A stretch of DNA of 64,000 nt from a candidate division FCPU426 bacterium (lineage in GTDB: Bacteria; Oederibacteriota; Muellerivitia; Muellerivitales; DAHXKG01), in contig DAHXKG010000004.1 of the NCBI GenBank assembly GCA_027366525.1, positions 169,617 to 233,616 on the forward strand, in the 5' to 3' direction. The translations under genes were made by a program, and so were the position numbers. How positions within the stretch are numbered: position 1 is the first letter of the stretch; every line of letters starts with the position of its first letter. Under the pieces are notes generated by a model, which saw only the letters and a list, made by a program, of their open reading frames with translations, was not told where the DNA came from and ran no database searches. Positions 42,157-55,211 of the stretch are shown here, one piece after another.

Positions 42157-42230
42157 TGGGAGATCGTCTAATGGTAGGACGGCAGGTTCTGGCCCTGTTA
42201 ATCTAGGTTCGAATCCTAGTCTCCCAGCCA
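42157..42230 (+). tRNA. tRNA-Gln (CUG anticodon)
   Basis: The cloverleaf folds: acceptor TGGGAGA (42157-42163) pairs with TCTCCCA (42220-42226), anticodon loop TTCTGGC gives anticodon CTG, the T-arm CTAGG-TTCGAAT-CCTAG is perfect, and CCA is encoded (42228-42230). It reads CAG codons. Its 3' end overlaps the last codons of the convergent serine recombinase, marking this tRNA as the probable integration site of the island. Confidence 0.96.
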
Positions 42231-43745
42231 TTTTTCAGATAGGCCATATTTTCCCGTCAAAATGGCTTCATCATTGGATTTTTTTGAGTTCGAAACGGCG
42301 ATCAAGTCAAACGGCTTTTTAAATTCCATCGAAAGATGGTTTTCTTTCCAAGACCCCTTTTCAAAAATGGTTCGGATTAACCGCCTTTTTTCGAAGGGAG
42401 ATTGAGTCAAGAAGGTCTGATAGGCCTTGGAGGCCATTTCCAGGAGCTTGACTCCTTCATCCTGATAGGTGTGGTTGGCCTGTTGGTGGACTTGGATGGA
42501 GTGAGCGATTTTTTCCATTTCCGCTTTCCAAGCCATTGATTTCTGGTCAAAAAATTCCTGAGCAATCCTTCCATCCAATTTGTCCTCATACATCGCCTCT
42601 ATCCGACCCTGGATTTTATGGTAATCCACATGTAAACGGGTGATCGCCTCAGTATGAAACTTCTGTTCATCCGCATGACTGGATTTCAAGGCCTGAATAA
42701 TCAAGGCCAGAAGGGTTTCATCGATTTCCAGAGACTTCAGGTAGTTCGAGAACTCACGTTCCAGTTTTTCTTCTCGAGTATAGGGTTCCGGACATTTTCC
42801 TTTATACCCGGTGCAGTGATAATAAACGTATTTTCTCTTTTTCAGTTCTCCCACCAGGGCACATCCACAATGCCCGCAAGTGATCAAACCGGAATAAGAA
42901 AAGATCGGGTTTGCACTTTTGGACTTTTTTTGATTTCGTTGGTTGAGAATTCCCTGAACCTGCTCCCAGAGTTTCTTGGAAACAATGGGAGTATGGATGC
43001 CTGGGTAAGTGAGCCCTTTCCAATCCAATTCCCCGCAATAGGTTCGCGTTCTCAACATCCGGTGAATGCTGGAAACGGGCAAGGGTAAACGGCTTCTTCG
43101 AAATACCAAGCCGGAATCCTTGAATTTCTGAGTGATGGCTTTCAGAGAATAGTTGCCGGTAGCATAATCTTCAAATAAGCGGGCAATGATGGGAGCGTAT
43201 CGAGGATCGATCTCAATCACCTTTTTTCCGTTGGGACCTAGGACGTTCGTATAGCCCAGCGGAGCCATGGAGGGCCAAATCCCTTCCCGGGCTTTTTCCA
43301 GCATTCCTTTTTTGGCTTCTTCCGAGAGGTTATCAATATAGTGTTTGGCCATGACCACCTTGATTCCATGAATCAATTTTTCATTGGAATGGGAGTGAGG
43401 AGAAATCAGGGTGTTTTCTTTGACGAGGTGAATGTCCAGGCCTAAATCATCCAAGGTGACCCAGTCCTTCAAATTACGGTATAACCGGTCTGTTTTTTCA
43501 GCCAGAAGGGTTTGGCAGGACGTGTTTTTCTTGAAAAAGGCAATCATAGCCTCAAATCCTTTTCGGCCGGTGACCTTGGCGGTTTCTACATCTTCAAATT
43601 CCCGGATGATTTCCAAGTTCTGATGGAAAGCAAACTCCCTCAAGAGCTTATATTGGGCCTGAATCGAAAAGCCTTCTTTTTCCTGTTCCTTGGAAGAAAC
43701 CCGGACATACAGGGCAACGAGCTTAGAAGTTGGAGAAAAGTTCAT
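42216..43745 (-). CDS. Large serine recombinase (integrase of the island)
   Basis: 509 residues: resolvase catalytic domain with nucleophile Ser in YVRVSSKEQ, the Recombinase domain (APLGYTNVLGPNGKKVIEI), a zinc ribbon (CGHCGCAL, later YYHCTGYKGKCPEP) and a coiled-coil C-terminus. Its stop (42216-42218) lies inside tRNA-Gln, so its last codons come from the tRNA 3' end. This suggests the element inserted there. It begins inside the preceding small ribbon-helix-helix-like gene, so the two are coupled. Confidence 0.93.
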   Translation of the reverse strand: MNFSPTSKLVALYVRVSSKEQEKEGFSIQAQYKLLREFAFHQNLEIIREFEDVETAKVTGRKGFEAMIAFFKKNTSCQTLLAEKTDRLYRNLKDWVTLDDLGLDIHLVKENTLISPHSHSNEKLIHGIKVVMAKHYIDNLSEEAKKGMLEKAREGIWPSMAPLGYTNVLGPNGKKVIEIDPRYAPIIARLFEDYATGNYSLKAITQKFKDSGLVFRRSRLPLPVSSIHRMLRTRTYCGELDWKGLTYPGIHTPIVSKKLWEQVQGILNQRNQKKSKSANPIFSYSGLITCGHCGCALVGELKKRKYVYYHCTGYKGKCPEPYTREEKLEREFSNYLKSLEIDETLLALIIQALKSSHADEQKFHTEAITRLHVDYHKIQGRIEAMYEDKLDGRIAQEFFDQKSMAWKAEMEKIAHSIQVHQQANHTYQDEGVKLLEMASKAYQTFLTQSPFEKRRLIRTIFEKGSWKENHLSMEFKKPFDLIAVSNSKKSNDEAILTGKYGLSEKWLGD

Positions 43746-45187: not shown

Positions 45188-45195
45188 AAAAGTAT
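45188..45195. repeat. Left 8-bp target-site duplication
   Basis: AAAAGTAT directly precedes the left inverted repeat of the IS1595-family transposon; the same eight bases follow the right end at 49142-49149. Eight-base duplications are typical of IS1595 elements. Confidence 0.9.
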
Positions 45196-45220
45196 CGGAA
45201 TTATCCCTTTTACAAAGCAG
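45196..45220 (+). repeat. Left terminal inverted repeat (IRL)
   Basis: Begins CGGAATTATCCC and ends ACAAAGCAG; it matches the reverse complement of 49117-49141 at 20 of 25 positions. Confidence 0.92.
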
Positions 45221-45269
45221 TTGGTATAGGCTAAAATCACTTTAGACGTTAATTCAGAAGGGATTTTCA

Positions 45270-46220
45270 ATGAGATACCGGCCGCCGAAGTTTGCTAGCC
45301 TTAAAGACATGGCCTACATAGACGTATGCTGCCTAACCGAAGACGAAGCCCGCGCTATTCTTGAGGACATCCGCTGGCCGAAGGGTCCCGAATGCCCGCA
45401 TTGCGGCTCTAAGGACCTCACCAGGATGGGAACCGAGAAGGCTAGGGACGGACTGATTCAATGCAACGCCTGCCGGGGCCAGTTCACTGTCATGGTGGGG
45501 ACCATCATGCAGGGGAGTCATATCACCTTAAGGCAATGGCTCCAAGCCTTCCATGCCATGTCCGCCAGCAAGAAGGGCATCTCCGCCCTGCAACTGAAGC
45601 GTAACTTAGGCCTGAAGTCCTACAAGTCGGCTTGGCACATGGCCCACCGCATCCGCTACGCGATGGACAACGAACCGGCCAAGGGCCTGTTGTCTGGCGT
45701 CGTGGCGGCCGACGAGACCTATGTAGGCGGCAAGCCTCCAAAGGACGGCAAGCGCCACAAGCGGGGCCGTGGAACCAGTAAGACCCCGGTGATGGCCCTG
45801 ATCCAGAAAAACGGACAGGCCAGGGCCAAGGCGGTCTCTTCAGTGTCAGCCAGGAGCCGGAAACAAGCTCTGGACAAGAACGTGACGAAGGAGGCCACGA
45901 TTATGACAGACGAGTTGCCTTCCTACGGTCCAGCCACACATGGCTATAAATCCCATCGTTCCATGAACCACAGCGAGAAGGAGTACGCCAGAGGAAAAGC
46001 CCATGCCAACGGAGCCGAGTCATTCTTCGTCCTGCTCAAGCGGGGCATCCACGGCATCTTTCACCACGTCAGCAAGCGGCACCTGCACCGCTACGCCGAC
46101 GAGTTCTCCTTCCGCTGGAGCCACCGTAAGGAATCCGACGGCGAAAGGACAGTGGAAACCATCAAGGGCATAGCTGGGAAAAGGCTGGCCTACGCGCAGA
46201 CTGTCAAGGGTGCGGCATGA
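45270..46220 (+). CDS. IS1595-family (ISXO2-like) transposase
   Basis: 316 residues. An N-terminal zinc ribbon (CPHCGS then CNAC) and a DDE-type domain with VAADETYVGGKPP as the first catalytic segment, TDELPSYG as the second, and AESFFVLLKRGIHGIFHHV as the third (N/E-containing) segment. It looks intact and could mobilise the element. Its final ATGA overlaps the restriction-modification gene. Codon use is GC-rich compared with flanking host genes, a sign of recent transfer. Confidence 0.93.
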   Translation: MRYRPPKFASLKDMAYIDVCCLTEDEARAILEDIRWPKGPECPHCGSKDLTRMGTEKARDGLIQCNACRGQFTVMVGTIMQGSHITLRQWLQAFHAMSASKKGISALQLKRNLGLKSYKSAWHMAHRIRYAMDNEPAKGLLSGVVAADETYVGGKPPKDGKRHKRGRGTSKTPVMALIQKNGQARAKAVSSVSARSRKQALDKNVTKEATIMTDELPSYGPATHGYKSHRSMNHSEKEYARGKAHANGAESFFVLLKRGIHGIFHHVSKRHLHRYADEFSFRWSHRKESDGERTVETIKGIAGKRLAYAQTVKGAA

Positions 46221-48061
46221 CTGGAAAAGCCGAAGCTCTCAATAAAATTAAAGGTTTGGTAGACAAGTATAAGAAGATCGAGCACGAGGGGAGACTTCAC
46301 GAATACAAGGAAGTCCGCACTTTGGACGAGTTTATCAAGCCGCTCTTTGCCGCACTAGGTTGGGACATGCAAAACACCAACGCCCCAGACGAGGTGGTTC
46401 CAGAAGACGTGGTTTCACATGGCCGCGTGGACTTGGCTTTCCGCCTGAATCATATCCCGGTGCTTTTCGTGGAAGCCAAATCGCTTGCGGTCGGTGTGGA
46501 AGACATCAAGTCGGTATGCCAGGCCATCGAATACAGTTGGCATAAAGGGGTTACTTGGGCCGTCCTCACCGACTTCAGGAATCTACAAATTTTTAATGCA
46601 GAACTGCCGCCGAAAGACATATACCAAAACAGATTCAAGGATTTCAGTTGCCTTGATTTTGAGGCTAGATTTGAAAAGTTGTGGCTTTTGTCGAGAGAAA
46701 GTTTTACTAAAAGGCTTCTGGATACTGAGGCTGAAGATTCATTCAAAAAGGCCAAACGGAAGCCCGTTGACGCCAAACTTTTTGAAGACATGCTGGGATG
46801 GAGAAAAAGGCTTGAAAAGGAGTTCTCAAAAAAGAACGGAAGCCTATCGCGGGAAGATGTAGACGAGGGAGTCCAGAGGATTCTGGATAGGCTCATCTTC
46901 ATCCGCACCGCCGCAGACCGCATGATAGAGCCAAACACTTTCACGGAGTGGCTGAACAGCGACACGGTTTCCTGGAAGAATCTCAACTCCCTGTTCCGCA
47001 ACTTCGACGATGGATACAACTCAAAGCTGTTCGCCTTCCATGCCTGCGAAAACTGGAAGGCTGACGACTCTATTTTGAAGACAATCCTAGAAGAGATGAA
47101 AGAGACGCCGGATGGTTACCGCTACGATTTCAATCTCATACCGAGCGACGTTCTGGGCGGCATGTACGAACAGTACCTTTCAACCATCCATCAAAAAGCG
47201 ACGAAGAAAAAGGAGCCTTCAAAGCAAAGGAAACAGGGGATTTATTACACACCGAAGTACATCGTGGATTTCATAGTGCGAGAAACAGTCGGGAAGGTGC
47301 TGGGCGAGACCAAACAGAAGGACGTCAAGCACTTGAAAATTCTGGACCCGGCCTGCGGTTCCGGCTCATTCCTCGTGTCGGCGTTTGACAAGGTGATCTC
47401 GGCCCAGAAACAGGGATTGTTCACCAAACAACAAGCGCTCAAGGAAAACATCTTTGGTCTGGACATAGATCCGCAGGCCGTAGAGATTGCCCAGCTTAAT
47501 TTGCTGTTGAAACTGCTGTTCGGGCGAGAAAGGCTCCCAAACATGCAACACAACATCGTTCCGGCCAATTCGCTGATGATGGACATCAATGAAAAGTACG
47601 ATGCCATTATCGGAAACCCGCCGTATATCAAGGAATACACAAACAGAACGACTTTCGACGGACTTCACTCAAGCCCCTACTATCAGGGCAAGATGGACAT
47701 TTGGACCCTGTTTGCTTGCCGGGCTATAGACCAGTTGAAGGATGGAGGTTATTTTAGCTTTATTGCCCCAAATAATTGGATTACGAATTTTGGCGCAAGT
47801 AAGTTTCGAGACAAGATTTTGTCCGAGGGTGAACTAGAAAAATTTGTAGATTTCGGGGACTACAAGGTTTTCAGGGACCGTACAACAGGGAAGGACGTTG
47901 GTATACAAACCATGATTTTTGTCTTTAAGAAAAAGAAGCCGAGGGCATCCTATCCGGTTGTTTACGCGAAGGTTTTAGACAAAGCCTTGAGCGAACTGGA
48001 AGTCTCTGAATGGTTGACATCTGGATTCCAGAACAGAACAGAACAGAACAGAAACCTTTAA
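46217..48061 (+). CDS. Type IIG restriction-modification enzyme, N-terminal part (nuclease and methylase)
   Basis: 614 residues before a frame-ending stop. The N-terminal PD-(D/E)xK nuclease has D72 (RVDLAF) and E86-A-K88 (VEAKSL). A helical linker follows, then the adenine methylase with SAM motif I (LDPACGSGSF, about residue 376) and catalytic N467-PPY. The chain stops just after five CAGAA units, before the target-recognition domain, which continues in another frame downstream. It starts inside the transposase stop (ATGA). In the present phase it lacks a specificity domain and is probably inactive; adding one repeat unit would give a 933-residue Eco57I-like enzyme. Confidence 0.88.
   Translation: MTGKAEALNKIKGLVDKYKKIEHEGRLHEYKEVRTLDEFIKPLFAALGWDMQNTNAPDEVVPEDVVSHGRVDLAFRLNHIPVLFVEAKSLAVGVEDIKSVCQAIEYSWHKGVTWAVLTDFRNLQIFNAELPPKDIYQNRFKDFSCLDFEARFEKLWLLSRESFTKRLLDTEAEDSFKKAKRKPVDAKLFEDMLGWRKRLEKEFSKKNGSLSREDVDEGVQRILDRLIFIRTAADRMIEPNTFTEWLNSDTVSWKNLNSLFRNFDDGYNSKLFAFHACENWKADDSILKTILEEMKETPDGYRYDFNLIPSDVLGGMYEQYLSTIHQKATKKKEPSKQRKQGIYYTPKYIVDFIVRETVGKVLGETKQKDVKHLKILDPACGSGSFLVSAFDKVISAQKQGLFTKQQALKENIFGLDIDPQAVEIAQLNLLLKLLFGRERLPNMQHNIVPANSLMMDINEKYDAIIGNPPYIKEYTNRTTFDGLHSSPYYQGKMDIWTLFACRAIDQLKDGGYFSFIAPNNWITNFGASKFRDKILSEGELEKFVDFGDYKVFRDRTTGKDVGIQTMIFVFKKKKPRASYPVVYAKVLDKALSELEVSEWLTSGFQNRTEQNRNL
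48029..48053 (+). repeat. Pentanucleotide repeat (CAGAA)5, predicted phase-variation tract
   Basis: Five perfect CAGAA units lie exactly where the reading frame of the Type IIG gene breaks. Both frames are open through the tract. Six units (plus 5 bp) or three units (minus 10 bp) join the two halves, giving 933 or 928 residues. Confidence 0.9.
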
Positions 48062-48101
48062 TACAATTATTGAGCCAAAGAAACTTAAGGGTAAAAATAT
48101 C

Positions 48102-49013
48102 TTGTTCTTGAATTCGGATTCTAATATTGGCGAGTTAATCAAAAAGATTGCTTCTTACGGAAAGTTTAACCTGACTGATGAAGAAATGGCTCAAGGCATT
48201 GTTTCTCCACAAGATTCCGTGAACAAAAAGTCGAAGGAAGCCTTGGGTGATTCTGTTCAAATAGGCGATGGAATTTTTGTTCTTTCAAATGACGAATTGA
48301 AAAAAATTCATCTTTCAACTGCCGAGTTGGAACTTATGCGCCCCTATTACACCACAAATCAACTTGGATTGTATTGGGGGAATTCCAAAAATACTCAGTG
48401 GATCATTTACACAGATTCAAGTTTTCAAAATCCACGGTCCCTGGATAACTTCCCGCATATAAAGAGACACTTAGATAGATTTAGAGATGTCATTACATCG
48501 TCTTTTCGGCCCTATGGTCTTCATCGAAGCCGGGACGAGAAATTTTTTAAGGGAGAAAAAATAATTTCTCTCCGAAAATGTTTGCGTCCTACCTTTACAT
48601 ACACGGATTTTGATTGCTATGTCTCCCAGACTTTTAACGTCATAAAGACGGATAGAATTAACTTGAAGTACCTATGTGCCATCTTAAATTCCAGGCTCAT
48701 TGCTTTCTGGCTAAAATACAGTGGAAAAATACAAGGGGATAACTTTCAGGTAGATTCCGAACCTTTGCGGTCATTACCAATCGTCCATGCAAAAGACCAA
48801 TCTAATCTTGCGGCAGATACTGATTCCATCTCTCTGTTATACAGAATCCTTCATCAACTAACACCGAACACCGATAAGTATAATGATTTGAAGGGTCAGA
48901 TAGAACGGCAACAAGCCAAAATGGATGAAGCAATTTACGCTCTGTACGGCCTATCTGCCGAGGAGGTGAAGCAAATCGAAGCCGTCAAGTTGCCGCAAGA
49001 GGAGACCAGATGA
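48102..49013 (+). CDS. Type IIG enzyme, C-terminal target-recognition part (out of frame)
   Basis: The frame is open from the CAGAA tract (about 48027) onward, and 48102 is only the first TTG, so this is the downstream half of one gene rather than a separate gene. It carries the specificity-domain features of Eco57I/TaqI-like enzymes: KYLCAILNSRLIAFWLKYSG and FQVDSEPLRSLPI, then a C-terminal coiled helix (KMDEAIYALYGLSAEEV). The stop overlaps the start of the small 3' gene (ATGA). Confidence 0.85.
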   Translation: MFLNSDSNIGELIKKIASYGKFNLTDEEMAQGIVSPQDSVNKKSKEALGDSVQIGDGIFVLSNDELKKIHLSTAELELMRPYYTTNQLGLYWGNSKNTQWIIYTDSSFQNPRSLDNFPHIKRHLDRFRDVITSSFRPYGLHRSRDEKFFKGEKIISLRKCLRPTFTYTDFDCYVSQTFNVIKTDRINLKYLCAILNSRLIAFWLKYSGKIQGDNFQVDSEPLRSLPIVHAKDQSNLAADTDSISLLYRILHQLTPNTDKYNDLKGQIERQQAKMDEAIYALYGLSAEEVKQIEAVKLPQEETR

Positions 49014-49180
49014 AGAAACGACTGAAAGCCAAACGCCTGAAGCCAATTTCCTTCTGTCCGCTCGCTCCGGAACAGGCGATTTCCGCCATCCTGCGGGTTC
49101 GGGCCCAGGCCAAGGGCTGCTTTGTCAACGGAACAATTCTGAAAAGTATTTTTATTCACCCGATTACCAATTTATTTTAA
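49010..49180 (+). CDS. Small cargo protein whose tail reads through the transposon end
   Basis: 56 residues starting at the ATGA overlap with the restriction gene. The N-terminal 36 residues (MKKRLKAKRLKPISFCPLAP, then EQAISAILRVRAQAKG) look like a genuine short protein. The next eight are encoded by the inverted repeat, and the last dozen (KSIFIHPITNLF) by host flank. In other insertion sites the tail would differ. Possibly a conserved small partner of the enzyme; no family assigned. Confidence 0.5.
   Translation: MKKRLKAKRLKPISFCPLAPEQAISAILRVRAQAKGCFVNGTILKSIFIHPITNLF
49117..49149. repeat. Right terminal inverted repeat and target duplication
   Basis: The IRR is 49117-49141 (ends CAATTCTG on the plus strand). 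The duplicated target AAAAGTAT follows at 49142-49149. Confidence 0.92.
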
Positions 49181-50050: not shown

Positions 50051-51496
50051 ATGGAAATTATTAGTTTACCCAAAAATATTGGTTACAGTTCTCTTGCTCG
50101 ATTTAGAATGGAACTTTATCAAAAATATAAATCTAAACTTCACATTAATTTAGACTTGAATCGGAAATTAGTTAGTTTTCAAGAAAATAAAAAAATTCCA
50201 ATTTATTCGTGGTTTAAATATAAAGAAGGTTTTACTGCAAGATTAGTTAACTATATTTTCGATAAATTGAAAATTGAGAATGGCACTTTGTTGGACCCGT
50301 TTGCTGGAGCTGGGGCAGCTCTTTTTGCGGCAAGACTGAGAGGGATAAATTCAGTCGGTATTGAGGTATTGCCAGTGGGAGTTTTTTCAATTGAAGCCAA
50401 AAATAGGATTTTAAATAACAAATCAACTACTTTTATAAAAGAAATTAGAAAGATACTGAACAATGATTTTTTGAAGTTTTATACCCCTCAATTGAAATTT
50501 AAAAATATTCCTATCACAAATGGTGCTTTTCCAATCGAGAATGAAAGAAAATTATTGGGATATCTTAATTATTGTAAGAAGATAAAAGACAATGATTTAA
50601 AGATGGCTTTATTATTTTTGGGATTTTGTGTTCTGGAAAACATTAGTTATACACGAAAGGACGGCCAATATTTAAGGTGGGATTTTCGTTCTGATCGAAA
50701 ACGAAGTGAGAATTTATTTAATAAGGGTACTATATATTCTTTTGATGATGCAATTAAAGAAAAGTTGAATCAAATTATATTTGATCTAACTTCGGATGAA
50801 GAACAATTTGATTTTTTAAAAATGGATAAAAATGTTCAGAAAGTTAAAATGAATATAATTGCCGGAAGTTGCTTGGAAATTCTTCCGACATTAAAAGCCA
50901 ATTCGGTAGATATTGTTGTTACATCACCTCCTTACTGCAATCGCTATGACTATACACGGACTTATGCTTTGGAATTAATGTATTTAGGTTTCACCGATGA
51001 GCAAATAAAAAAATTCAGACAAACTATGCTTTCATGTACAGTTGAGAACAAGGATAAAGTGAATTTTCTTAAAGACTTGTATTTTAAAAATAAAAATAAT
51101 GCTGGCTTTGAAAAGGTTAATTCGGTTTTTGATCATCAGAAAGCACTTCATGAAGTTTTGAATATTCTTGATAAATTGGCGTTTAATGGAAAATTAAATA
51201 ATTCTAATATTTCTCGTATGGTAAGAAATTATTTTTATGAAATGTGTTTTGTTGTTTTTGAAATTTCTCGTTTAATAAGGAAGAACGGTTATTTTGTAAT
51301 GATTAATGATAACGTTCAGTATTCTGGGCATGAAGTGCCAGTCGATTTAATATTATCTGATTTCGCCAGTGCATTTGACTTTGATGTAGAAAAAATATGG
51401 GTTTTACCTGTTGGAAAGGGAAATAGTAGTCAGCAGATGGGAATACATGGGAGAAATGAATTGCGCAAGTGCATTTATATATGGAGAAAAAAATAG
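50051..51496 (+). CDS. DNA methyltransferase (N4-cytosine type) of an AvaI/BsoBI-like system
   Basis: 481 residues. SAM motif I is LLDPFAGAGAALFAAR near residue 79, and the catalytic motif is VTSPPYCNRYDYTRTYALEL near 293; TSPPY is the form usual in m4C methylases. It should protect host DNA from the nuclease encoded next, whose start it overlaps by 16 bases. It opens a run of same-strand defence genes. Base composition is very AT-rich, unlike the preceding transposon. Confidence 0.88.
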   Translation: MEIISLPKNIGYSSLARFRMELYQKYKSKLHINLDLNRKLVSFQENKKIPIYSWFKYKEGFTARLVNYIFDKLKIENGTLLDPFAGAGAALFAARLRGINSVGIEVLPVGVFSIEAKNRILNNKSTTFIKEIRKILNNDFLKFYTPQLKFKNIPITNGAFPIENERKLLGYLNYCKKIKDNDLKMALLFLGFCVLENISYTRKDGQYLRWDFRSDRKRSENLFNKGTIYSFDDAIKEKLNQIIFDLTSDEEQFDFLKMDKNVQKVKMNIIAGSCLEILPTLKANSVDIVVTSPPYCNRYDYTRTYALELMYLGFTDEQIKKFRQTMLSCTVENKDKVNFLKDLYFKNKNNAGFEKVNSVFDHQKALHEVLNILDKLAFNGKLNNSNISRMVRNYFYEMCFVVFEISRLIRKNGYFVMINDNVQYSGHEVPVDLILSDFASAFDFDVEKIWVLPVGKGNSSQQMGIHGRNELRKCIYIWRKK

Positions 51497-52449
51497 TGCT
51501 AAAACAAATATATCAATATCATCTAAAAAATGCCAATGATTTATTGACACCATATGAAGAAGTTCGTGCTGGTTTTGTTGAAATGGCCTTGGAAAGAAGT
51601 CGACGAGCAATTCCTTATATTGCGGAGGCTAGAGCCTTAAAGGTACAAGCTTCATATTGTAAAGTGCCATCAGACCTGATTAAGAATACCAAAATTCGAA
51701 TGGCTTTATTGACGGCTTCAGGTGCTTCTGACAAGGCGTTGAGCCATATGGAAGAAGGAGATAAAAATAAAGCTATTCAAGGTTTGATAAAAAATTTTTT
51801 AGAACCAGCTGGATCAAATTTTGTTGAAGAACTTGTATTTAGATTTTTATTAACCAGAGGGGATTCTCTTGGCGGGTCAATGAGAAATATTATTGGAGCA
51901 TTGGGAAACCGAAAATTTAGTCGAACCATGCTTTCTGTTCTTGGGTTGGAAAAAGTATCTTTTAAGTGGCTGAATTCCATTACAACAACATGGATGGATT
52001 CTGATTTTGATAATCCAGATATCGAGTTGGCACTAAATGGCATTAGTTGGGAGAACAAAAAAGAGAATAGAACATTAGTATATAACAGAAAATTTTCATT
52101 CTTTAAAAACAATATTGATTTATGTTTGATTGATGGTGGCTTTCAGGAAATTGAGAAGATCGGAAATAATCCTGAAAAATATATTGCTTTGGGTGAATTA
52201 AAAGGTGGAATTGACCCAGCAGGAGCAGATGAACATTGGAAAACTGCTAGAACAGCGTTAGCTCGTATTTCTGAAAATTTTAAAAAATATAAATCAAAAC
52301 CATATCTTTTTTTCGCAGGCGCAATTATCGAAAAAGAAATGGCAAAAGAAATATGGGGAGATTTAAAAAACAAGAGACTTACAAATGCAGCCAATCTTAC
52401 TAATCCCGAACAATTGATATCTTTATGTACATGGTTGGTTTCATTATGA
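51481..52449 (+). CDS. Type II restriction endonuclease, AvaI/BsoBI family
   Basis: The start at 51481 gives 322 residues, very close to BsoBI. Family features: LLTASGASDKALSHM, FVEELVFRFLLTRGDSLGGSMRN, and a PD-ExK core with D213 (NNIDLCLIDGG), E239-L-K241 (GELKGGIDPAGADEHWKTA). The family recognises CYCGRG, so the same site is predicted but not shown. It overlaps the methylase by 16 bases; GTG 51496 is an alternative start. With the methylase it forms a complete Type II system. Confidence 0.88.
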   Translation: MEKKIVLKQIYQYHLKNANDLLTPYEEVRAGFVEMALERSRRAIPYIAEARALKVQASYCKVPSDLIKNTKIRMALLTASGASDKALSHMEEGDKNKAIQGLIKNFLEPAGSNFVEELVFRFLLTRGDSLGGSMRNIIGALGNRKFSRTMLSVLGLEKVSFKWLNSITTTWMDSDFDNPDIELALNGISWENKKENRTLVYNRKFSFFKNNIDLCLIDGGFQEIEKIGNNPEKYIALGELKGGIDPAGADEHWKTARTALARISENFKKYKSKPYLFFAGAIIEKEMAKEIWGDLKNKRLTNAANLTNPEQLISLCTWLVSL

Positions 52450-52499
52450 GTATGCTTGTTTTTTATTATGAAATTATAAAATTTGGAATTGTATAAAGA

Positions 52500-53519
52500 A
52501 TGGCTACTACAAATAAAATTGTTTATTTATTAGGAGCTGGGGCAACCCATGCAGAAATTTTCAACGCAGTAAATTTGAGAGAAGATGCAGTATCAAATCC
52601 CGCTGAATATGGATTGCTTATTTCTGATGTTTCTAAACGAATACTGAATAAGGCTAAAGCGAAAGAAGAATTCAACTTTATAAAATATGGTCATGGCGCT
52701 AGTAATCATTTGGATAATGTTGAATACTTGATTTCATTGCTTTTAACAAGCCATGTTAAAGATAGCGAAAAAAAGGTTAACATTCTTAGAGAATTGGTTA
52801 AAGACGATATCAAAAGCGTATTGGATAATTGGAGTGCTGGATTTTATCTACATGATTCGTTATTGGAGCTTAGTGTAAAAAATGAAGAATTAAGTAAAGA
52901 GGAGCTTTTAGGTATTATATCGCTGAACTATGATGATGTGATTGATAATGCCTGTAAACATAACGCTATTGAATATGATTATGGTTTTGGTCTTGAAAAG
53001 AAAGATAAAAAATATTTATTGAAATTGCACGGATCATTTAATTGGACAGAGATCGAGTTTTATGGAAAGAGTAAAGACATTCCTATTATTCCCCTTGGAA
53101 TGAATAAAAATTATTTAGTTCCTCCATACAATTTTATTTGGAGCAACGCGTTTGATGTTTTAGCTAAATGTGATATGCTTCGGGTTATTGGGTGTTCATT
53201 AAGTCAAAGTGAATATAGTTTAATCGATTTATTGTTTAAGGTTCGAATAGAAAGAGAAAGAGGATTTACAGTAGAGATAATTGACGTAGATACAACATCA
53301 GGAAGAATAGAAGATAATTACGGTTTTTTCTTGGATGTGATTGGATTGGGTAATGCAAGGATGAAATTAAACATAAAAGCAAGTGAATATACAGTACCAG
53401 GTGCTGGTAATCCATTCAAGGCGTGGTTGAAGGCAAAAGCTATTGATACATATGGGAATGAGAACAAGGCTAAAGAAACTAAATTTGTAAAACGGATATT
53501 TGAAGGAAGAGAGGGGTAA
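52500..53519 (+). CDS. SIR2-like protein (predicted NAD-consuming defence effector)
   Basis: The 339-residue protein has SIR2-fold motifs: LLGAGATHAE at the N-terminus, SLNYDDVIDNA, KLHGSFNW with the catalytic-type His, and RVIGCSLSQSEY. SIR2 proteins in Thoeris, DSR and related anti-phage systems deplete or modify NAD on infection. It follows the restriction gene by 50 bases and is separated from the DUF262 gene by only three bases, suggesting a two-part or larger cassette. Confidence 0.85.
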   Translation: MATTNKIVYLLGAGATHAEIFNAVNLREDAVSNPAEYGLLISDVSKRILNKAKAKEEFNFIKYGHGASNHLDNVEYLISLLLTSHVKDSEKKVNILRELVKDDIKSVLDNWSAGFYLHDSLLELSVKNEELSKEELLGIISLNYDDVIDNACKHNAIEYDYGFGLEKKDKKYLLKLHGSFNWTEIEFYGKSKDIPIIPLGMNKNYLVPPYNFIWSNAFDVLAKCDMLRVIGCSLSQSEYSLIDLLFKVRIERERGFTVEIIDVDTTSGRIEDNYGFFLDVIGLGNARMKLNIKASEYTVPGAGNPFKAWLKAKAIDTYGNENKAKETKFVKRIFEGREG

Positions 53520-53522
53520 GTA

Positions 53523-54602
53523 ATGGAAGATGAAGATAAAGAAGGAAGATATCTACTTAATATTTCTGTAAAAGAATTTATTGGTAAATATGCACATAAA
53601 ATTGATTTTGATGCAGATTTTCAACGAGAAGTAATTTGGTCTGTTGAGGATCAAAAAAGATTATTGGATTCTATATTAATAAATATCGATATTCCAAAAA
53701 TGTATCTTGTAGAAACTGATGAAAAAAATAAACAATTCAGATATGAATGCATTGATGGTAAGCAACGTATGACGACATTATTGGATTTTATTGAACCAGA
53801 TGTTGAAGGGAAACCATTAAAAATACGAATTTTTGAAAAAGATTACACTTATAGAGAGTTTAAAGAAAAATTTTCTGAAAAAGCTAAAGAATTTGATGAA
53901 TATAAATTAACTTTTGTTGTTTATAAATCTTTAGATGATGACAAGTTTCTTTCAAAGATTTTTCAAAGGTTACAATTTGGTGTGAGATTAAATTCTGGTG
54001 AAATACTAAAATCACATATTGGCAACATGAGAGATTTCATTTATGACGAAATGAAAGATCAGTGTCCATTTTTAATTAAAACCAATTTATCGGACAGACG
54101 ATTTTCTAGAGAATTTACCCTTTCGCAGCTAGCTATTAATTCATTCGCAAAATATAAGACTGAGCAGTTTAGTCGAGCTAGGTTGAAAGACCTGGAAGAT
54201 TTTTTAGATGAGCATGAAAAAATAAAAAAAGATGACATAAATCTTAAACGCATTCAAAATGTCCTATTAGAAATGGATAAAGCGTTTAATGAAAATGCCT
54301 CAAATATTTCTAGCCGTGCAGTTGCGGTAAGCGCATATTTATTTTGCGAAGCGCTGTTTTTGGAAAAAAAACATAAATTAATATCAAAATTTTCAGAGTT
54401 TTTTGTAAAACTATTGGAAGAAATTAAGAAAAACATGGATTATGTAAGCAATTATGAAAATCCGAAAAATTCTAGAATATTGAATGAATTTCAAAAATAT
54501 ATTTTACAAGCTTCTGTTGAAGCCTCTTCAATTAATAAACGTCATAAATTTTTAAAAGAGGCATTTGAATATTATGAAAAAAATGAAAAAATTTTAAGGT
54601 AA
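53523..54602 (+). CDS. DUF262 (ParB/Srx-fold) protein, GmrSD-like without HNH
   Basis: 359 residues. The N-terminal DUF262 domain has DFQREVIWSVEDQKRLLDSI and the NTP-motif variant IDGKQRMTTLLDF. The helical C-terminal half lacks a DUF1524 HNH nuclease, so this is not a full GmrSD enzyme. DUF262 proteins use nucleotides and occur in several anti-phage systems. With SIR2 three bases upstream, it may be the sensor/NTPase for a NADase effector. A further gene follows but is truncated. Confidence 0.85.
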   Translation: MEDEDKEGRYLLNISVKEFIGKYAHKIDFDADFQREVIWSVEDQKRLLDSILINIDIPKMYLVETDEKNKQFRYECIDGKQRMTTLLDFIEPDVEGKPLKIRIFEKDYTYREFKEKFSEKAKEFDEYKLTFVVYKSLDDDKFLSKIFQRLQFGVRLNSGEILKSHIGNMRDFIYDEMKDQCPFLIKTNLSDRRFSREFTLSQLAINSFAKYKTEQFSRARLKDLEDFLDEHEKIKKDDINLKRIQNVLLEMDKAFNENASNISSRAVAVSAYLFCEALFLEKKHKLISKFSEFFVKLLEEIKKNMDYVSNYENPKNSRILNEFQKYILQASVEASSINKRHKFLKEAFEYYEKNEKILR

Positions 54603-54610
54603 AAAATTAG

Positions 54611-54664
54611 ATGCCACGAATTAAAATTAAAGAAATTCAAGTTGCTGATTTAATGCGCTTGTAA
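54611..54664 (+). pseudogene. Truncated third gene of the SIR2-DUF262 operon
   Basis: Nine bases after the DUF262 stop an ATG opens MPRIKIKEIQVADLM, then runs into the IS256 fragment near 54650 and stops. The first 14 codons are host-like and AT-rich. An AAGG lies upstream. The original gene product is unknown; its loss may have inactivated the system. Confidence 0.6.
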
Positions 54665-55116
54665 ATCTTTTGGTTCAGAACACTAATGGTGGAAGGACTT
54701 ACTCGGCTCCCCCATAAGGCCTCGGTGATATCTTCTGCGCGTCGAACCGAAACTCCTGCCAAATACATCTCCACTAAAGCCTCTTCGACTGAGATTTTCC
54801 GTCGTTTATACCGTTCAATAATGGCCGTTTCGAAAGGTAGACGACGGAGTTTGGGAATCTGACGGGTCACTTCACCGGCCTTGGTGTGGAGTTTTCGCCG
54901 ATAGGACCCAGCCCGGGTATCCACCCGATCAGGGCTTCTTTCGTACTTTTTAGCTCCACAAAGCTCATCTGCCTCAGCATCCAGCATTTGATTTAAAGTG
55001 TTTTCAACAGTATCCCACACAATGGTTCCCAAATGATTCTGAAGCTGGGTTTCATCAATTTGGACTACCTCGGAAAGGGATCTTTTTGTTTCTTTCAACG
55101 TGTTATGCTTTTTCAT
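54637..55116 (-). pseudogene. IS256-family transposase, 5' fragment only
   Basis: Starting at ATG 55116 (AAGGAG upstream), about 160 residues match the N-terminal third of mutator/IS256 transposases: LNQMLDAEADELCGAKKYER, RRLPFETAIIERYKRRKISV, and ISVLNQKIYKRI. The catalytic DDE part is absent; the frame ends KSAT from flanking sequence. The break is near 54650. It is a partial copy left by a deletion or partial insertion, so it cannot transpose. Confidence 0.85.
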
Positions 55117-55211
55117 GGGTTGCTCCTTGGTTTTAGGTCTTAGAAATCTTGGTCGATTCCTAGTTTGACCCACGGGGAGCTACCCCTGCAATTCAAATGT
55201 GCGAAAATATT

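Follow-up and report, generated by a model that had tools for sequence, protein, structure and literature searches.

In a window of 64,000 nucleotides from a candidate division FCPU426 bacterium, we found a complete IS1595-family element of 3,946 bp (45196-49141), in which a type IIG gene is carried as a passenger (Table 1). The gene had been placed on a transposon in a preliminary description of the locus, and this is borne out more strongly than claimed, as both terminal inverted repeats and a target-site duplication were found. The duplication, AAAAGTAT, is perfect on both flanks, and its length of 8 bp is the usual one for IS1595 (PMC8101967). The transposase has the catalytic domain of the family (PF12762, 4.5e-38) and its N-terminal zinc ribbon (PF12760, 1.3e-13) and scored 206.8 bits against NF033547, where the cut-off is 75. 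The stop codon of the transposase gene overlaps the start of the type IIG gene as ATGA, and the same overlap joins the type IIG gene to ORF X. These overlaps at both junctions suggest, on the arrangement of the codons, that the three genes form one translationally coupled operon. ORF X runs on past the right terminal repeat and the duplication, so that its 3' end lies in host DNA. In L080, the transposase is directly followed by a homologue of the first 30 residues of ORF X.

Table 1. Features of the element and of the interrupted type IIG gene (positions in the window)
Feature	Position	Strand	Remarks
Left copy of the 8-bp target-site duplication, AAAAGTAT	45188..45195	.	
Left terminal inverted repeat, 25 bp	45196..45220	+	~20/25 match to right repeat
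IS1595-family DDE transposase, 316 aa	45270..46220	+	zinc ribbon + DDE_Tnp_IS1595
Type IIG N-terminal half, 614 aa: PD-(D/E)xK-type nuclease region + N6-adenine MTase	46217..48061	+	motifs, profile matches
(CAGAA)5 simple sequence repeat at MTase/TRD boundary	48029..48053	+	3n units predicted ON
Type IIG C-terminal half: target-recognition region with TaqI_C domain	48054..49013	+	+1 frame; domain match, homologues
Small ORF X, 56 aa	49010..49180	+	
Right terminal inverted repeat, 25 bp	49117..49141	-	
Right copy of the 8-bp target-site duplication, AAAAGTAT	49142..49149	.	

The passenger was assigned to the type IIG enzymes by profile and motif. Its N-terminal half matched the PADLOC model REase_MTase_IIG (8e-87) as well as the Eco57I and N6_Mtase families, and it retains a nuclease-like motif, VD...VEAK, along with DPACGSGSF and NPPY of the methylase, all of them intact. 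A TaqI-like specificity domain was matched in the C-terminal half. Nuclease, N6-adenine methylase and target-recognition parts are thus all present and collinear, fused at three or six repeat units and split in the assembly. Two solved MTase structures (8cxz and 7lni), which we take to be CamA-type methylase domains, align to residues 336-600 of the N-terminal half. The repeat encodes residues 605-612, so that it lies just beyond the end of the methylase domain. A search of the C-terminal half against solved structures gave no match, and the predicted structure of one homologue (L006) was too poor for use (mean pLDDT 48.6). Over some 930 codons the tract is the only lesion that we could see. 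GC content, about 57% in the transposase, drops to 39% in the recognition half (47600-49013), and close similarity to L006 begins with NPPY; the module for target recognition may have been swapped in.

Reading of the tract itself confirmed the preliminary description in every point of arithmetic. All five CAGAA units are perfect, and the change of frame falls exactly within them. The frame of the N-terminal half enters the tract and ends at the TAA at 48059-48061, while that of the C-terminal half is open from 48018 to 49013, with the preceding stop at 48015, so both frames stay open across the repeat. One extra unit (six in all) yields a protein of 933 aa and two fewer (three) yield 928 aa; with four units, translation would pass into the remaining frame, and this one is closed. 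The tract therefore lies in the reading frame in such a way that unit number sets ON or OFF. Five units is exactly the cut-off used for counting pentanucleotide tracts as phase-variable (PMC5953494; PMC7371114). By chance, about 3e-6 period-5 runs of at least 25 nt would be expected in this genome of 2.02 Mb, where the tract occurs once, and the 25-mer was found in 1 of 383 other genomes searched.

Repeats were also surveyed in 773 kb (38%) of the organism's own genome, sampled as stretches. No further tetra- or pentanucleotide array of at least four units was found in this sample. Apart from the tract, (TCC)7 (L049, 270-290, contig C2) is the one repeat in it that has five or more units and a unit of more than two bases. 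As the sample has no other long-unit repeats of the tetra- and pentanucleotide class, the organism has no obvious set of switchable genes.

We then compared the junction with homologues from Prevotella, Microcystis, Psychrobacter and several uncultured bacteria (L005, L006, L059, L060, L061, L073, L094, L095, L097 and L098). Every checked homologue that covers the junction is one continuous polypeptide; the short linker at this point varies in length and contains no repeat. Identity to L006 is about 53% on either side. The linker would be 5 residues long with three units and 10 with six, compared with 6 residues in L005 and 8 in L006. Since the homologues read through without a repeat, the tract has been gained at the MTase/TRD boundary, in a place where, judging from these linkers, a change in length is tolerated. 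Relatives of the C-terminal half were few (only three among the genome contigs), and the nearest plasmid homologues are less than 60% identical. Viral contigs held no relative of either half or of the transposase and no copy, exact or near-identical, of the tract region. No allele with a different number of units was found among the genomes searched, of which only one belongs to this organism's family.

A sister element was identified in a second genome from this phylum (G031; L073, contig C120). Its transposase is 58-59% identical, its ends match and it is flanked by the target duplication AAAAATAT. Its type IIG passenger gene, about 1,030 codons long, is uninterrupted and has no tract. The sister element is inserted in an apparent type I RM locus, where the flanking ORFs resemble pieces of a specificity subunit. 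In IS1595 relatives that are more distant, different passengers lie next to the transposase, namely a DNA methylase (L087), a NYN-domain protein (L081) and P63C proteins (L086 and L089), and perfect 8-bp duplications were found at L081, L087 and L089. Passenger genes in IS1595 elements were already known, according to PMC3129680, which cites Siguier et al. 2009.

Taken together, we regard the interpretation as a phase-variable switch as plausible and as better founded than the preliminary description could show: the tract is probably a slipped-strand ON/OFF switch of the transposon-borne type IIG enzyme, captured OFF in the assembly. Slipped-strand mispairing during replication would add or remove CAGAA units. 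At counts of 3, 6 or 9 the two halves would be in frame, giving an enzyme predicted to cut and to methylate (ON). With 4, 5, 7 or 8 units, translation would end after the tract and the recognition half would be missing (OFF); the assembled state of five units would give the 614-aa product. As nuclease and methylase share one chain, the OFF state would shut down both activities at once, and unprotected self-cutting would be avoided. Switching may be rare, given that a tract of five units only just counts as phase-variable. As regards the preliminary description, the enzyme class, the break at the tract and the OFF state of the assembled copy all stand. That slippage caused the break, that cells of the population can reverse it and that the enzyme has the predicted activities is inferred.

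The lack of an allele with another unit number among the genomes searched counts against a switch. So does the absence of a tract from the sister element in G031, which would also fit one-way decay: a single slippage event would have disrupted a redundant mobile gene and left a young pseudogene with no switching in practice. Passenger genes on transposons often decay. The borderline number of units and the lack of other repeats of the tetra- and pentanucleotide class in the 773-kb sample point the same way. On the other hand, no second lesion was seen in about 930 codons, and the element is complete, with a perfect target-site duplication. Moreover, five perfect units stand where homologues have none, which argues for repeated slippage rather than a single event. 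On balance we consider one-way decay unlikely, and a reversible switch remains our preferred reading.

The break could also be an error of assembly or consensus, the true count being three or six units and the gene simply intact. Short tandem repeats are classic sites of miscounting and this is a draft genome of 33 contigs, but neighbouring genes have intact long ORFs, and collapse of the tract is unlikely because 25 bp is far below read length; such an error seems to us very unlikely. Least credible is that the break is functional and the enzyme works as two polypeptides, with the C-terminal half translated separately from a TTG start at 48102, which its ORF does contain, or reached through recoding within the tract. 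Enzymes encoded by two genes are known, BcgI being one that PMC4996451 mentions. Against this, all homologues that cover the junction are fused, and a start at TTG 48102 would omit the residues FNTIIEPKKLKGKNI, which align in homologues. We therefore give the two-polypeptide arrangement hardly any credence and return to the slipped-strand switch.

Such a switch has precedents, and in this respect the preliminary description overstated its novelty. Cj0031 of Campylobacter jejuni is a phase-variable type IIG RM enzyme in which a mid-gene poly-G tract splits the frame and whose homologues lack the tract (PMC4889913). The present gene resembles it as a type IIG gene that would encode a single chain when in frame, with a mid-gene tract giving two frames, with tract-free homologues and with the predicted loss of both activities together. 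The two differ in that Cj0031 has a mononucleotide tract, measured ON and OFF variants and a host-associated pathogen as its bearer, whereas here a CAGAA pentanucleotide lies on a transposon and is known from one assembled allele. A pentanucleotide tract (ACAGC) likewise sets the frame of the methylase gene of M.Btr188III (PMC4996451), although that gene belongs to a Type I system and has its tract at the 5' end, with 17-27 units and observed variation between strains. SSR-switched methylases have been reported in commensal and environmental bacteria as well (PMC7394358). The element itself is built like the IS1595-family 'transporter' elements tISCpe8 and MTnSag1, which carry passenger genes (PMC5704250): it has a transposase, inverted repeats, an 8-bp duplication and a passenger between the transposase and the right end. 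What sets it apart from those elements is its passenger, a full type IIG enzyme whose gene contains a repeat tract. In the open-access literature searched, we found no such IS1595 passenger and no paper combining IS1595, type IIG and repeat switching.

The kind of switch is thus already known, and its vehicle, a small transposon, is the unusual part. With this locus, a switch of the Cj0031 type would be found on a mobile element that is self-contained and comes from a poorly sampled lineage, and it raises the question of whether repeat switching helps restriction genes to move between genomes. Because the same transposon family carries an uninterrupted type IIG gene and other DNA methylases, switched and unswitched passengers can be compared. 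A more far-reaching idea is that a minimal transposon evolved its own switch, which would allow it to enter an unmethylated genome with the nuclease OFF and to turn ON later. We hold this to be quite unlikely; if true, phase variation would help the mobile element to spread and become established, rather than help the host to adapt.

A second repeat was noted beside a distant homologue of the enzyme in G134, where (AAGC)17 lies just upstream, inside a leader ORF (L132, 4912-4979, contig C31). One frame of this leader ends by a stop-start overlap on the ATG of the type IIG homologue, and as assembled, the leader's frame meets an early stop. From this arrangement, a phase-variable leader acting by translational coupling is possible. 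We did not take it as proof of switching across the family: G134 has several other long repeats, so the proximity could be due to chance and the leader is treated as a lead. Fourteen units of GAACA, the CAGAA motif in another register, occur in the same unrelated genome (L131, 2510-2579, contig C125), on a different contig from the enzyme homologue.

The surroundings of the element hold further genes of mobile and defence character. A large serine recombinase is encoded upstream on the minus strand (42216-43745). On the other side, a defence cluster of 28-33% GC (50051-54602) adjoins the element and comprises a methylase, a BsoBI-family endonuclease (PF09194, 1.4e-134), and SIR2-like and GmrSD/NsnA-like proteins. 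It is followed by a truncated Mutator-family transposase at 54637-55173.
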